From Roseomonas sp. E05 (GTDB taxonomy: Bacteria > Pseudomonadota > Alphaproteobacteria > Acetobacterales > Acetobacteraceae): 32,268 nucleotides of DNA. Made by a program: the position numbers and the translations under genes. Below, in pieces: positions 12,775 to 20,807 of the stretch. Within the stretch, counting starts at the first letter, position 1. Each line of letters begins with the position of its first letter. Where the stretch lies: contig NZ_JASIRT010000043.1 of NCBI RefSeq assembly GCF_030063475.1, positions 1-32,268 on the forward strand, given 5' to 3'. Below the pieces are notes generated by a model. That model saw only the letters and a program-made list of their open reading frames with translations. It had not been told where the DNA came from and did not search any database.

Positions 12775-12880
12775 GGGGAAAGGAACTCCCCCAGGCCTCT
12801 TTTGCCAGTTTGGCGGAGCCGCAGGCCCGGCCGCAAACTGCCAGAAAAAAGATGGGGGTTCGGGGGAATTCATTCCCCCG
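12775..12880. repeat. Large imperfect palindrome of the intergenic repeat family
   Basis: Two arms of about 45-50 bases, starting at 12775 on the plus strand and at 12880 on the minus strand, are inverted copies. Shared parts are GGAACTCCCCCAG / GAATTCCCCCGA, a C-rich then CTTTT part, and GCCAGTTTGGCGG / GGCAGTTTGCGG around the centre. A perfect inner palindrome, cgggggaat-tc-attcccccg, occupies 12861-12880. The element sits in the leader between the ligase relic and the acyl-CoA dehydrogenase start, and could fold in the mRNA or stop read-through. Confidence 0.6.
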
Positions 12881-13065
12881 ACCTTCCCGGCACGGCCAGC
12901 CCGTCCACCGCCACGGCACCCGGCCCCTCGGCACGGATGATCAGCGGATTGATCCCGGCCTCGGCCACCGCCTCCGCCGGCAGGCGCCGGAAGCCGGGGG
13001 TCACCGGCGAGGCCGCGCTGCATTGGCGCCACCGGCACATCCTGGCCAAGCCGGCCTCCCGCAGA
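12870..13065 (-). pseudogene. C-terminal relic of an acetate-CoA ligase/acyl-CoA synthetase (ATP-grasp type)
   Basis: Translating the minus strand gives a tail reading EAGINPLIIRAEGPGA then VAVDGL and a stop at 12870-12872. This is the characteristic end of the ATP-grasp half of ADP-forming acetate-CoA ligase-like proteins (usual form DINPLIV--EG--AVAVDA). Further upstream, in a different frame, GRLGQDVPVAPMQRGLAGDP resembles an internal family segment normally about 100 residues before the tail. The two pieces are joined out of frame with most intervening sequence missing, so this is a deleted, frameshifted remnant. Left and right limits are approximate. Confidence 0.6.
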
Positions 13066-13141
13066 CCTGGGGCGTTTCACGGATCCGGGCAAGGACGAGC
13101 CGCCCGCCGGAGGGAATGATGAAGAAGACGCTCCAGGCGCA

Positions 13142-13188
13142 GCAAAGGAGCTTGCGAGCCGCGTCCGTCGAAAGACTCTCTCCTTTGC
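13142..13188 (+). promoter_or_regulatory. Stem-loop in the leader of the formate dehydrogenase gene
   Basis: The 9-bp arms gcaaaggag (13142-13150) and ctcctttgc (13180-13188) are perfect inverted copies around a 29-base loop, about 60 bp before the FDH start. It could be a leader structure or a factor site; no known riboswitch core is recognised. No sigma-54 promoter motif was seen nearby. Confidence 0.3.
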
Positions 13189-13250
13189 CGCGGAAACCGG
13201 GAGACCGCCCTGGAGTTGTGTGCTGAAAGGTGTTGTCGGAGCAGTGCGCT

Positions 13251-16200
13251 ATGAAAAAGCTTCGCCGTGGCATTGCGGGCCGGATCTCAGGTTTTGTTCG
13301 CGACTGGTCCCTTCCCCGCCAGTTTGCCGGCCAGAGCGTGATGTCCGAAGCGGCGAAGAGCACTCTGTCGAAGACGCTGCGCCCCCGCCTGGAAGAGGCC
13401 GACGCGGTCGGCACCAGCATCTGCCCCTTCTGCGCCGTCGGCTGCAGCCAGCTGATCTATGCCAAGAACGGCAAGCCGATCCATATCGAGGGCGACCCGC
13501 GCAGCCCGGTCAATCAGGGCACGCTCTGCCCCAAGGGTGCGGCGACGCTGGGCGCCCTGCTCTCCCCCGAACGCATCAACACGGTACTCTACCGCGCCCC
13601 CCACTCCGACACCTGGGAACGGAAGCCGCTCGACTGGGCCATGGAGCGCATCGCGCAACTGGTGAAGAAGACGCGCGACGACACCTTCGTCGAGAAGCTG
13701 CCTAGCGGCAAGCGGGTCAACCACACGCTGGGCATTGGCTCGCTCGGCGGCGCCACGATGGACAATGAGGAAAACTACCTCATCAAGAAGCTCTTCGGCG
13801 GTGGGCTGGGCATCGTCAACATCGAGAACCAAGCCAGAATTTGACACTCCTCTTCGGTGCCCAGTTTGGGCACCTCCTTCGGACGCGGCGCCGGCACGAC
13901 GGCCCTGTGGGATCTGGCGAATGCGGATTGCCTGATCGTCATGGGTTCGAACATGGCGGAGAACCATCCTGTTGCCTTCCGCTTCCTGCTGGAAGCGAAG
14001 CAGCGCGGCGCCACGCTGATCCATGTCGACCCGCGCTTCACCCGGACCTCGGCGCTGTGCGACATCTACGCGCCGATCCGTTCGGGCACGGATATTGCCT
14101 TTCTGGGCGGCATCATCCGCCACGTGCTGGAGAACGACCTCTGGTTCCGTGATTTCGCGCTGGCCTACACCAACATCGCGGACATCATCGAGGAGGGCTA
14201 CGAGGACGCCGAGGAGAAGGACGGCATCTTCTCCGGCTTCAACGCGGCGCAGGCCAATTACGAGACCGGCACCTGGCAGTACAAGGGCAAGAAGGTCCCC
14301 TCCTCGATCGCCGAGCACCACGCGGAAAGCCGGGAGAGCACCAGGGATTCGGGGAGCATGTCCGACGGCCCGCCGCCCAAGGACCCGACGCTGCAGCACC
14401 CGAACTGCGTCTATCAGATCCTGCGCCGGCACTTCGCGCGCTATACGCCGGAAATGGTGGAGCGGATCACCGGTTGCCCGAAGGAAACCTTCATGAAGGT
14501 GGCCGAGGCCCTGGCCCGCAATTCCGGCCCCGAGCGCACCGGCACCTTCTGCTACGCGGTGGGCTGGACGCACCACACGGTGGGCGTGCAGATCATCCGT
14601 GCCTGCTCGATCCTGCAGGGGCTGCTCGGCAATATCGGCCGTCCCGGCGGCGGCATCCAGGCGCTGCGCGGGCATTCCAGCATCCAGGGCAGCACCGACA
14701 TCCCGACGCTCTACAACATGCTGCCGACCTATCTGCCGCAGCCGGACGCCTTCAAGTCGCACGACACCTTCCAGGACTATCTGAAGGAGGAGACGCCGGC
14801 CACCGGCTGGTGGCACAACTTCCCCAAATACATGGTCAGCCTGCTGAAGGCCTGGTACGGCCCCGGCGCGCGGCCGGACAACGACTGGGGCTACGACTTC
14901 CTGCCCAAGCTGACCGGCGACCACTCGCAGCTGCCGATGACGCTCGCCATGGCCGATGGCGTGGTGAAGGGGCAGTTCATCTTCGGGCAGAACCCCGCCG
15001 TGGGCGCGGTGAACTCCGAACTGGTGGAGCACGGCCTTGCCAAGCTGGACTGGCTGGTGGTGCGGGACTTCGCCATGGTGGAGACGGCCGATTTCTGGCA
15101 GAAGGGCCGGCGCGTGCAGAAGGGCGAGACCACGCCGGCGCAGATCGGCACAGAGGTCTTCTTCCTGCCCGCCGCCATGCCCGGCGAGAAGGACGGCTCC
15201 TTCACCAACACCAGCCGGCTCGTGCAATGGCATGACAAGGTGCTGGAGGCGGCGGGCGACAACCGCTCCGACCTGTGGTTCGTCTATCATCTCGGCAAGC
15301 GGCTGAAGCAGCTCTACGCCGGGAGCACCGCGCGGCGCGATGCGGCGCTGCTGGCACTGACCTGGGATTACCCCGAGCGCGGCGAGCGCCGGGAACCGGA
15401 CCCCGAGGCCGTGCTGCGCGAGATCAACGGCTATACCGTCGCCGACGGCAAGCAGATCGAGAAGTACCAGGAGCTGAAGGACGACGGCTCGACCGCCTGC
15501 GGCGGCTGGATGTATTGCGGCGTCTATCCCAAGGAGGGGCACAACCAGGCGCGCTCGCGCATCCCCGACGGCCCGGATGGGCCGGGCAGTCATATGAACT
15601 GGGCCTTCGCCTGGCCGTCCAACCGGCGCACGCTCTACAACCGCGCCTCCGCCGACCCGCAGGGCCGTCCCTGGTCCGAGCGCAAGAAGATGATCTGGTG
15701 GGACGAAGGGCAGGGAAAGTGGACCGGCACCGACGTGCCGGACTTCATCCCCACCAAGCGCCCGGACATGCGGCCCGACTGGAGCAAGCACCCGAAGGGT
15801 ATGGATGCGCTGGGAGGCGACGACCCCTTCATCATGGAGGCCGACGGCAAGTGCCAGCTCTTCGTGCCGACGGGCCTGCGGGATGGGCCACTCCCCACCC
15901 ACTACGAGCCGGTGGAAAGCCCGGTGCGGAATATCCTCTACGGCCAGCAGCACAATCCGACGGCGAAGCTCTGGCCGCGCCCCGGCAATGAGTTCAACGA
16001 GCCCGAGGACCCGCGCTTCCCCTATGTCTTCACCACCTTCCGCCTGACCGAGCTGCATTGCGGCGGCATTCCGACCCGGGTCGCGCCGCACACAGCGGAA
16101 CTGCAACCCGAGGCCTTCGTGGAGATCCCGACCGAGCTGGCGCGCGAGCTCGGTATCCGGCACCTGGACTGGACGGTGCTTTCGACACGCCGCGGCGAGA

Positions 16201-16445
16201 TCGAGGTGAAGGCCATGGTGACCAACCGCCTGCGCCCCTTCGTCATCGACGGCCGCACCATCTACCAGATCGGCATGCCCTGGGTCTTCGGCTGGGATGG
16301 CTATGCCCGCGGCGCCCCGGCCAATGCGCTGCTCTCGATCTATGGGGATGCCAATACCAGCATCCATACGACCAAGGCGCTCACCTGCAACCTGCGCCCC
16401 GGTCGCCTGGGCCCTCCCGGCAGGATGTCCCATGCCGGCGCGTGA
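13251..16445 (+). CDS. Formate dehydrogenase alpha subunit, selenocysteine-containing (in-frame UGA at 13842-13844)
   Basis: A molybdopterin oxidoreductase of the FdnG/FdoG type, about 1064 residues if the UGA is read through. It oxidises formate to CO2 at a Mo(W)-bis-pterin centre. A [4Fe-4S] site is visible before the UGA (CPFCAVGCSQ then TLCPKG). The UGA falls in NQAR-I-U-HSSSVPSLG, exactly where FdnG has selenocysteine. Downstream the frame continues through GRGAGTTALWDLANAD, GHSSIQGSTDIPTLYNMLP and a molydopterin-dinucleotide-binding C-terminus with no other stop. UGA is residue 198 from ATG 13251 (GGAG upstream) or 168 from ATG 13341. The second start fits a mature FdnG-like protein, so the true start is uncertain. 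No hydrophobic Tat leader is evident, unlike FdnG. No beta or gamma gene follows. Reading the UGA as a plain stop would split the gene into two false halves, 13230-13844 and 13857-16445. Confidence 0.9.
13842..13885 (+). promoter_or_regulatory. SECIS-like element with selenocysteine UGA codon
   Basis: The UGA at 13842-13844 is followed, after 11 bases, by a perfect 7-bp stem ggtgccc (13856-13862) / gggcacc (13868-13874) closing a 5-base loop AGUUU (13863-13867). In E. coli fdhF the apical loop GGUCU likewise starts 18 bases after the UGA, and the loop G-U is what SelB recognises. Here the loop begins 18 bases after the UGA and keeps G-U in second and third place. The bulged U of the fdhF stem is not obvious. 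Function needs SelA-SelD, none of which is in the window. Confidence 0.82.
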
Positions 16446-16452
16446 GGACAGG

Positions 16453-16728
16453 ATGGTGGTCCTCCATGAGCAGGCCCTGGAGGCGATGGACCGCCTCCTC
16501 GCCAAGCGCCCGCAGAAGGAGGGCCATGCCTTTTCCGAGGCCACGCGCTGCCTTTGCGCGCTGCGGGATGAGCTGATCCGCCGCCAGAGCGAGGCCGGCG
16601 CCTCTTCCGGCGAGCGCGAAAGGCTGGAACGCCTGAACGCCGTCATCAGCGTGCTGGTCGGCGGCCATTTCCCGCTCGGCAGCATCCCCTGGGACGAGAT
16701 CGAGAAAGCCCGCGCCTGGATCCCCTGA
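16453..16728 (+). CDS. Small hypothetical protein following formate dehydrogenase
   Basis: A 91-residue, mostly helical, charged soluble protein that I do not recognise. It starts MVVLHEQALEAMDRLLAKRP and ends WDEIEKARAWIP, with two Cys close together (CLCALRDELIRR). It begins 7 bp after the FDH stop with GAGGA just upstream, so it is translated from the same transcript. Position suggests an accessory or assembly role for FDH, but nothing in the sequence proves it. An in-frame ATG at 16432 would overlap the FDH end. Confidence 0.6.
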   Translation: MVVLHEQALEAMDRLLAKRPQKEGHAFSEATRCLCALRDELIRRQSEAGASSGERERLERLNAVISVLVGGHFPLGSIPWDEIEKARAWIP

Positions 16729-16879
16729 AAGCGCGGGGGACGCTCCATCGCAGTCACCTTCCGAAGCAGATCGGGCAGGCGGAACTGGCGAAGCCGATTC
16801 CGTGCGCGTCGGGCGAGGCCTGTGGTTGATGTCAGGCGGTGTCCGCTGGCCGCTGTACGACGAATGGCTGGAGATGGGC

Positions 16880-17230
16880 CAGGGCAGAAGCGCCTCGATG
16901 CGGCGTGCCGGCTGTTCGGCGATGCGGCCGAGGATGTGGCGGAGATCGGCTTCTCCGGGTTGAACCCGCTGAGCTTGGCGGTTTCGGCGAATGTGCAGGC
17001 GGCGGCCGCGTTGCCGAGGCAGGCGCGCAGTTCGGCCATGATCGGCGCGGGGGGGGCCGCTCATCCGGGCTCCTGCCGTGGGCGCGTTTCTCGACGGCAT
17101 AAGGAGCCGCGATATGCGCCTGGGCCCCGCGGGCGGACCGGCGCCGCCAGAAAGGGGTGGTCGTCGCGCACACAGCCCAGAGCCGCCCCGTCCCCGTCTG
17201 ACCAAGCCCCGGCGCCAGCACCGGGACCGC
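16880..17230 (-). pseudogene. Decayed IS66-family transposase (C-terminal half)
   Basis: Pieces of an IS66 TnpC-type transposase appear in order on the minus strand but in different frames. VLAPGLGQTGTGRLWA (about 17224-17175) is followed by VRDDHPFLAAPVRP. After a large internal gap come AACTFAETAKLSGFNPE (from about 17010) and, shifted again, ADLRHILGRIAEQPARRIEA then LLPW (to about 16880). These match the usual family segments V-APG-GKTKTGRLW, YVRDD-P, ETAKLNGVDPEAYLR and ARI-EHP-NRI-ELLPW. At least two frameshifts and the loss of the catalytic centre make it inactive. No intact terminal repeats were found. Confidence 0.75.
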
Positions 17231-17641
17231 CGTGCCGCCGGAACGATGCCATCCAACGCGTCCGTTGTCGGATCGGGAAGATCTTCGGTGCCTGGAAGCG
17301 CGGCGACGGGCTGCGACGCATGCGATGGCGAGGGCTCAAGCTCGCAGGTTCGCTTCACCGCCATCGCCTGCAACCCCAAACGCGCAGCATCCATGCTCGG
17401 AGCTGCCGCGGCCTGAGGGGGTCACGCAGGGCTCAACGCAGGGCCAAACAGCAGCCCCTCACCGCAGCACGATGCAGTAACCCGCCGCCTTCCGCCTCCA
17501 GGTCTCCCGGGCTGACGCGGCATGCCGCAATAACGCCAGAAAAGCTGTTGGCGCATGCGCTGAAAAAAAAGCGGGCACAAGCCAGGGCCAGTCAGGCGCT
17601 GCACTTCAGCCAAAACAAGCAATTCGCGGTGTTTCTTCAAT
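17230..17641. other. Stretch without recognisable gene between IS66 relic and tRNA-Thr
   Basis: No ORF here has convincing homology or a ribosome-binding site. A short plus-strand segment ending at 17416 (VRFTAIACNPKRAASMLG) faintly resembles the C-terminal tail of another transposase family, but it is too short to call. The base composition becomes more AT-rich towards the tRNA. Most likely mobile-element debris. Confidence 0.4.
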
Positions 17642-17671
17642 GTTGACAGTGGGTTGTATGTCAACTTCGGG

Positions 17672-17746
<75 letters not shown>

Positions 17747-17950
17747 AAGGCACTGAAATTACCAGTGCTTTTCTGCGCCAGCCTGCCCTGTCCGCACCGT
17801 CCGGGTTGAACAGCCCGCAACGACCGGAACCAGGGAGCTCCCCTTCTCTCCGGTTTCGCTGCGGATTTCAAGCGATGGCTGTGTCAACGTGCATGTCTCA
17901 CCCGCATGTCTCACCGCGGGCCCTGCGCAGCAGTCCAGGTCTTCGATGCT

Positions 17951-19446: not shown

Positions 19447-20657
19447 GCGGCGAGCATCTGCTGGATTCACGGACCGCCTGGCTCCGCCTCTCCGCCATCG
19501 TCGCGCTCACGACGCTGGGCGGCGCGGGGATGTGGTCCGTGGTCGTGGCGCTGCCCTCGGTGCAGGCGGAGTTCGGCGTGACGCGCGGCGCGGCCTCGCT
19601 GCCCTACACGCTCACCATGCTGGGCTTCGGCACCGGCGGCATCCTGATGGGGCGGCTCGCGGACCGGTTCGGTCCGATGAAGCCGCTGCTCGGCGCGACG
19701 GTGATGCTGGCCGGCGGCTATGTCCTCGCCGGGCTTGCGCCGAACCTGACCCTCTATACCCTGGCGCAGGGCGTGATGATCGGCATGCTCGGCGCATCCG
19801 CGGCCTTCGCGCCGCTGGTGGCCGATGCCTCCCTCTGGTTCCGCCGCCGGCGCGGCATCGCGGTCGCGCTCGCAGCCTCCGGCAACTACCTGGCGGGCGT
19901 CGTCTGGCCGCCGATGCTGACCTGGCTGATCGGGGCCCATGGGTGGCGCATGGCGCATCTGGCCGTCGGCGCCATCTGCCTGGTGACGATGCTGCCGCTC
20001 GCCCTGGCGCTGCGCGCGCGGGCGCCTGGATCAGGCGGCGGCAGCTTCGCGGGCGATCCGGGGCAGGTGAGGCCCCTCGGCCTGTCGCGCAACGGGCTGA
20101 CGGCGCTGCTCTCCTGCGCGGGCGTGGCCTGCTGCGTCGCCATGGCCATGCCGCAGGTGCATATCGTCGCCTATTGCGGCGATCTCGGCTACGGCGTGGC
20201 GCGCGGGGCGGAAATGCTCTCCCTGATGCTCGCCTGCGGCATCGTCTCGCGGGTCGGCTCCGGCCTCATCGCCGACCGGATCGGCGGGCTCCGCACGCTG
20301 ATGCTGGGCTCGGTGCTGCAGGGCGTGGCGCTCTCGCTGTTCCTGTTCTTCGACGGGCTGGGCTCGCTCTTCACGCTGTCGGCGCTGTTCGGCCTGTTCC
20401 AGGGCGGCATCGTGCCCTCCTATGCGGTGATCGTGCGGGAGAGCTTTCCGGCCTCCGAAGTCGGCATGCGGGTCGGCATCGTGCTGATGGCGACCCTGGT
20501 CGGCATGGCGCTGGGCGGGTGGCTGTCCGGCGTCATCTTCGACGCGACAGGCAGCTACGCCGCAGCCTTCCTGAACGGCGTTGCCTGGAATGCGGCGAAT
20601 GTGCTGATCGTGGCGACGCTGCTGCTGCGCAGCCGCGCGCGCCTGGCCACCGCCTAG
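19443..20657 (+). CDS. Major facilitator superfamily transporter
   Basis: A 404-residue inner-membrane protein with 12 predicted helices. The loop between helices 2 and 3 carries the MFS signature GRLADRFGPMKPLLG near 74-88, and a second half-repeat SGLIADRIGGLRTLMLG occurs near 275. The pattern resembles monocarboxylate- or CynX-like MFS carriers. Translation is coupled to the nitroreductase (ATGA overlap). The stop codon TAG at 20655-20657 lies inside the first arm of the intergenic palindrome, so that element supplies the gene's end. Confidence 0.88.
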   Translation: MSGEHLLDSRTAWLRLSAIVALTTLGGAGMWSVVVALPSVQAEFGVTRGAASLPYTLTMLGFGTGGILMGRLADRFGPMKPLLGATVMLAGGYVLAGLAPNLTLYTLAQGVMIGMLGASAAFAPLVADASLWFRRRRGIAVALAASGNYLAGVVWPPMLTWLIGAHGWRMAHLAVGAICLVTMLPLALALRARAPGSGGGSFAGDPGQVRPLGLSRNGLTALLSCAGVACCVAMAMPQVHIVAYCGDLGYGVARGAEMLSLMLACGIVSRVGSGLIADRIGGLRTLMLGSVLQGVALSLFLFFDGLGSLFTLSALFGLFQGGIVPSYAVIVRESFPASEVGMRVGIVLMATLVGMALGGWLSGVIFDATGSYAAAFLNGVAWNAANVLIVATLLLRSRARLATA

Positions 20658-20760
20658 AGCGTTTTCCGTTCGCTCCGGCTCACCGAAAACGCTCTAGCCG
20701 TTTGTTTTGACGAGCATCTTCACCCGTTCCGATAATGCCATCGGAACGGGATCTGCTCTA
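20654..20760. repeat. Double-hairpin intergenic repeat between convergent genes
   Basis: Two palindromes lie side by side. The first has perfect 13-bp arms ctagagcgttttc (20654-20666) and gaaaacgctctag (20685-20697). The second has perfect 11-bp arms cccgttccgat (20723-20733) and atcggaacggg (20740-20750) and ends in ctctag. CTAGAGC-bordered units of this kind recur between genes in many alphaproteobacteria (general knowledge, not checked). Located between the convergent MFS and TctC genes, it may act as a two-way terminator. Confidence 0.7.
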
Positions 20761-20807
20761 GGCACGGGGGCAAGCTCCGGCCAGCCGGCGGCTGGCCGGA
20801 GCGGCCG

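Follow-up and report, generated by a model that had tools for sequence, protein, structure and literature searches.

Does the long forward-strand frame at 13251-16445 of this contig encode a selenoprotein or a broken enzyme, and why does it stand away from the genes of its partner subunits? The window analysed here (32,268 nt) is the complete contig C43 of the draft genome of Roseomonas sp. E05 (5.73 Mb, 109 contigs). As stated in the initial annotation, the frame contains a single internal stop, the TGA at 13842-13844, located between NQARI and HSSSV. The order of positions along the NF041513 profile is continuous across this codon (positions 3-185 in the first half, 187-1051 in the second), and NF041513 is the best family for either half, with 219.3 and 1248.6 bits, respectively, the halves having been scored apart and each falling below the whole-protein cut-off of 1400. 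The part following the UGA alone scores 818.8 bits with TIGR01553, the family of formate dehydrogenase N (FDH-N) alpha subunits, which is above the cut-off of 814.2, and among proteins of solved structure E. coli FDH-N (1kqf) is the closest in sequence. Together with the trees of 19 homologous rows described below, these matches indicate that the frame very probably encodes the catalytic (alpha) subunit of a molybdopterin FDH, 1064 residues long, with the UGA read as selenocysteine (Sec) at residue 198. Gene prediction that ignores Sec would truncate this protein at residue 197. At the N-terminus of alpha (window 13251-13400), the motif DWS[LV]PRQ is seen in 15 of the 16 rows printed, and L071 has DWAVPRQ. 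No obvious twin-arginine signal was found there by eye, so alpha may face either side of the membrane.

Among the 43 homologous loci identified in the genome_contigs set, four stop short of the codon; the 39 that reach it have UGA in 30 cases, Cys in eight (TGC or TGT, one base from TGA) and TGN in one. Both the nearest locus, L064 from a distant Acetobacteraceae MAG, and the locus of a congener (L035, genome G012) have UGA. A family search yielded matches at E up to 1e-190 in 26 of 299 genomes and added 25 loci, at least four of which duplicate loci already named; all 21 that are readable at the codon have TGA, three of them being of the FdnG type. Within the genus, the subfamily is present in only two of 17 genomes, our own and G012, and identical proteins in a 59-row tree show that the family of the window's protein includes Belnapia, Paracraurococcus and Roseicella, which suggests a host related to the acetic acid bacteria.

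The machinery for Sec is encoded in the host on contig C1, where selB (frame 433384-435252), the gene for tRNA-Sec with anticodon TCA (selC, 433251-433339) and selA (435282-436619), all on the reverse strand, and selD on the forward strand (436848-437774) each score over the respective family cut-off. Two further tRNA-Sec matches over the Rfam cut-off turned out to be tRNA-Ser genes. The initial annotation had proposed a selenoprotein and had suggested looking for these four genes and for an ordinary codon in close relatives. All four genes are present, the relatives have UGA or Cys apart from the ambiguous TGN, and the proposal is further supported by the wobble bases considered next.

Downstream of the UGA, a predicted upper hairpin of a bacterial SECIS element (13856-13874, +) has a 7-bp stem, GGUGCCC/GGGCACC, and the loop AGUUU at 13863-13867. 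The stem, the loop and the spacing of 18 nt between UGA and loop are as initially described, and counting by eye places the loops of E. coli fdhF, fdnG and fdoG at an equal distance. The bSECIS constraints given in the available part of PMC13188914 are a loop of 3-9 nt, an upper stem of 4-16 bp, a G in the first two loop positions, a location 16-37 nt from the UGA and an MFE of at most -7.5; this element, with a loop of 5 nt, 7 bp in the stem, G as the second loop base, a spacing of 18 nt and a hairpin MFE of -13.8, falls within all of them. By itself, the hairpin is weak evidence: the gene is GC-rich, and at 37 of its 1044 codon positions a perfectly paired hairpin of 7 bp or longer follows in accordance with the bSECIS rules on spacing and loop G. 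Nor does the fold energy stand out (z -0.56). The Rfam family SECIS_3 (RF01989) aligns end to end with 29.4 bits and E 8.1e-5, below its gathering score of 63. The hairpin holds the only TTG among the 84 Leu codons of the gene and one of the two AGT among its 54 Ser codons.

We accept the SECIS as real because the UGA and the wobble bases are conserved, not because of the hairpin alone. The bases corresponding to U17, G23 and U24 are located at 13858, 13864 and 13865, in the same register as in E. coli. The wobble base at position 24 is U in all 32 Sec rows (the 30 UGA loci, the window and L035) versus one of the eight Cys rows, for which Fisher's test, estimated by hand, gives about 4e-7, although the rows are related to each other. 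At positions 17 and 23, the Cys rows do not vary either, and hence these two bases are set by the protein sequence. In the Sec rows, 92.9% of the helix cells are paired, a level reached by five of 500 shuffles, with 28-55% in slid versions; in the Cys rows, the corresponding values are 73.2%, 258 of 500 and 29-50%. Compensatory changes on both sides of the helix are limited to two cells, not above shuffles, so the argument was built on the wobble bases. A covariance model made from the Sec rows recovers L037 and L039, both FdnG-type loci, at about 2e-6 and the E. coli genes fdnG and fdoG at E 0.002; fdhF is not among its matches with E up to 1. We discarded this model as a means to tell Sec from Cys loci: every one of the eight Cys loci is matched within that limit, L104 and L074 at about 1e-6, level with the FdnG-type Sec loci, and so it partly reflects shared coding sequence. 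When applied to the host genome, it gave this site as the one match among the 150 of 5308 candidates that were scored, and the genome may contain other genes with this type of SECIS.

The loop and the state of U17 require separate consideration, given that the initial annotation had suggested a variant SelB target on account of the loop sequence and an apparently missing bulged U. In E. coli, the fixed SECIS sites are U17, G23 and U24, according to the part of PMC8659212 available. The loop of fdnG and fdoG is AGUCU, with these three bases in the same register as in the window, and fdhF has the three bases as well. The suggestion regarding the loop was based on fdhF only and does not hold: AGUUU belongs to an AGUYU type shared with fdnG and fdoG, and so defines neither a new loop class nor a new SelB target. 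The U is not missing either, since U17 is present in register. What stands is the lack of a bulge: one extra base of the 3' strand, A31, faces U17, which is thus predicted to be paired. The base opposite U17 in the 32 Sec rows is A (15), G (15) or U (2), whereas U17 is bulged in the E. coli elements and, by eye, in L037 and L039 of the FdnG type. Judging by these rows, the faced U17 is a trait of the whole subfamily and no quirk of this gene. Base 31 opens a Thr, Ala, Ile or Ser codon and may itself be set by the protein sequence.

Two other explanations of the interrupted frame and its hairpin can be weighed against this evidence. The UGA could stem from a mutated base or a sequencing error in what is normally a Cys gene, leaving a pseudogene or a split gene, and the Cys codons in eight of the 39 readable homologs are indeed a single base away. 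Nevertheless, UGA is the usual state in the relatives (30 of 39, and 21 of 21 in the family search), no other stop interrupts the frame, the sel genes are present and the wobble base at SECIS position 24 is kept in the Sec rows but in only one of the eight Cys rows, so we give this explanation almost no credence. The alternative that the element is a distinct SelB target, unlike the E. coli kind in its loop and unbulged U17, draws on the A, G or U facing U17 throughout the Sec rows and on the bulge of the E. coli elements. It seems improbable, considering that U17, G23, U24, the distance from UGA to loop and the AGUYU loop are those of fdnG and fdoG, that the element lies within the constraints in the consulted part of PMC13188914, and that positions 17 and 23, being fixed in the Cys rows too, are set by the protein. 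A natural set of SECIS elements in which U17 faces A or G provides a simple test of what SelB requires. The Sec part of this system is ordinary biology, a regular Sec-FDH, and the UGA is not damage.

In the established pathway, SelD makes selenophosphate, SelA converts Ser-tRNA-Sec to Sec-tRNA-Sec, SelB binds the hairpin and delivers the charged tRNA to the ribosome, and the Sec of FDH is a ligand of the active-site metal. In this host, the proteins encoded on C1 would perform the same steps, with SelB binding at 13856-13874 and Sec at the active site as metal ligand. We infer that Sec is actually inserted at residue 198 and that alpha assembles with the products of the beta and gamma genes of C1.

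The location of these subunit genes constitutes the second part of the question. The fetched flank of alpha contains beta and gamma in 37 of the 43 relatives, and in each of the six exceptions (L088, L091, L092, L096, L105 and L106) either the alpha match or the contig is truncated; a sel gene is also seen near alpha in 11 of the 43. In the window, alpha is not next to its partners, and the host's own beta and gamma are located at C1:431140-433094, adjoining selC-selB-selA-selD. In G012, the gene order is gamma-beta, a divergent alpha, a 91-aa ORF and a hydroxyacid dehydrogenase. According to blastn, our C1 matches both flanks of the G012 alpha locus (85% and 89%), with 144 bp where G012 has 3676 bp containing alpha and the small ORF; C1 thus joins beta to the hydroxyacid dehydrogenase with no alpha between them. 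Just upstream of beta on C1, there is an open frame (L017 6878-7129, +) without a Pfam match, and DNA similarity to several relatives starts near L017 6886-6911.

On C43, similarity to G012:C8 is found in parts of the sequence to the left of alpha, ending at 12985, and resumes on the right at a tRNA-Thr gene (TGT; 17672-17746, -), where 17670-17749 is identical to the congener over 80 of 80 positions, and then from 18684. The segment in between (12986-17669), with alpha and the small ORF, has no match in the three G012:C8 stretches fetched around the corresponding flanks. In G012, the two flanks are about 33 kb apart and the order on the right-hand side is shuffled, indicating that the region has been rearranged. 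Immediately after alpha comes the counterpart of the 91-aa ORF (16453-16728, +), which travels with this FDH: tblastn detects it in 30 of the 43 genome_contigs loci and in L035, and it follows alpha in some relatives and gamma in others. It has no Pfam match and is possibly an unnamed FDH accessory protein. Further downstream, there is a weak trace of the C-terminus of an IS66 transposase (16879-16944, -; PF13817, E 6.9e-5, 23.4 bits, below the cut-off of 30), and the end of the stretch 17120-17416 (+) resembles, by eye, what we take to be a transposase C-terminus.

A 112-bp repeat at 20650-20761 has at least 40 near full-length copies in the host genome (40 of 76 candidates were scored), with 86-100% identity and three short inverted matches, and two copies flank selA and selD on C1. 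The short stretch at 12800-12885 resembles two sites on C1 (L017 9097-9185 and 3750-3800; 76-84% identity) and is perhaps another dispersed repeat. Contamination was considered for C43 and is unlikely: stretches on either side of alpha match G012:C8 at 82-94%, and the contig carries the genome's own 112-bp repeat.

Phylogenetic analysis suggests different histories for alpha and its partners. Identity to the G012 counterparts is 91% for the host's beta and gamma alike and 92% for its hydroxyacid dehydrogenase, and the gamma shares only 58% with that of L064. As to alpha, the stretch following Sec is 85% identical to L064 and 78% to G012; for the stretch preceding Sec, these values are 80% and 81%, respectively. 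In the 19-row alpha tree, our protein groups with L064 (100/100) and G012 with Belnapia and Paracraurococcus (96/92), and a quick 59-row tree likewise unites ours with L064 (100) and places G012 with L158 (83). In the 19-row beta and gamma trees, ours groups with G012 (99/99 and 100/100). The AU test rejects the grouping with G012 for alpha after Sec (p 4e-5) and the grouping with L064 for gamma (p 1.5e-4); for beta, the grouping with L064 is not rejected (p 0.11), and residues 1-197 of alpha do not discriminate between the two origins (p 0.45). Along the protein, L064 leads G012 over most of alpha, with the exception of residues 1-75 and 676-825 and ties in 76-150 and 376-450, and the identity profile reveals no clean recombination point inside alpha. 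Most of alpha is likely foreign in origin, though this may not extend to the whole protein.

The presence of beta and gamma on C1, the lack of alpha at its native place, the discordant trees and the AU tests together lead us to propose that the native alpha beside beta was probably lost and that the present one, derived for the most part from a lineage like that of L064, stands in for it at a different locus. A vertically inherited alpha that moved within the genome, its odd position in the tree reflecting uneven rates or recombination, or a split created by faulty assembly, would fit the undecided first 197 aa, the residues 1-75 and 676-825 in which L064 is no closer than the congener, and a draft of 109 contigs. 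We regard this as rather unlikely in view of the AU rejections for post-Sec alpha and for gamma, and of identities of 85% to L064 and 78% to G012 for alpha compared with 58% and 91% for gamma; the C1 contig joining beta to the hydroxyacid dehydrogenase without alpha and the match of other parts of C43 to the congener also speak against it. If alpha was indeed replaced by a foreign gene, it is conceivable, and we offer this tentatively, that the UGA-containing alpha, having arrived at another locus along with its 91-aa companion, now relies on the resident SelB, tRNA-Sec, beta and gamma and forms part of a chimeric enzyme; with U17 facing a base, as throughout the subfamily, SelB of this lineage would have to flip U17 out of its pair.

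The available part of PMC1794560 describes fdhA beside selA-selB-selC in the Sec-decoding Alphaproteobacteria, Betaproteobacteria and Pseudomonadales examined there, and links the transfer of the Sec trait to the joint transfer of a selenoprotein gene. With Sec decoding already in place, a recipient could take a foreign UGA gene alone, and the newer point here is that a selenoprotein gene has apparently passed from one lineage to another unaccompanied by its sel cluster. We found no report of a displaced FDH alpha in the literature searched, and claim its absence from print no further than that.

Compared with known systems, the closest parallel is FdnG and FdoG of E. coli, the alpha subunits of FDH-N (1kqf) and FDH-O, which share with the window the placement of Sec, the loop type (AGUCU there, AGUUU here), the placement of U17, G23 and U24, and the distance from UGA to loop. 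They differ in the residues around Sec (UHGPTV versus UHSSSV); in the window, U17 faces a base and no twin-arginine signal is evident by eye. Also, fdnG and fdoG adjoin their own beta and gamma genes, unlike alpha in the window. In the alphaproteobacterial Sec-FDH clusters with selA-selB-selC, so far as they are described in the available parts of PMC1794560 and PMC8124441, the FDH alpha is a selenoprotein, as it is here. In cases from the latter source, selC is nested in selB, whereas in our genome it starts 41 nt past the selB stop, outside selB. Beta and gamma adjoin the sel genes in this host just as in those clusters, but alpha, unlike theirs, is set apart.
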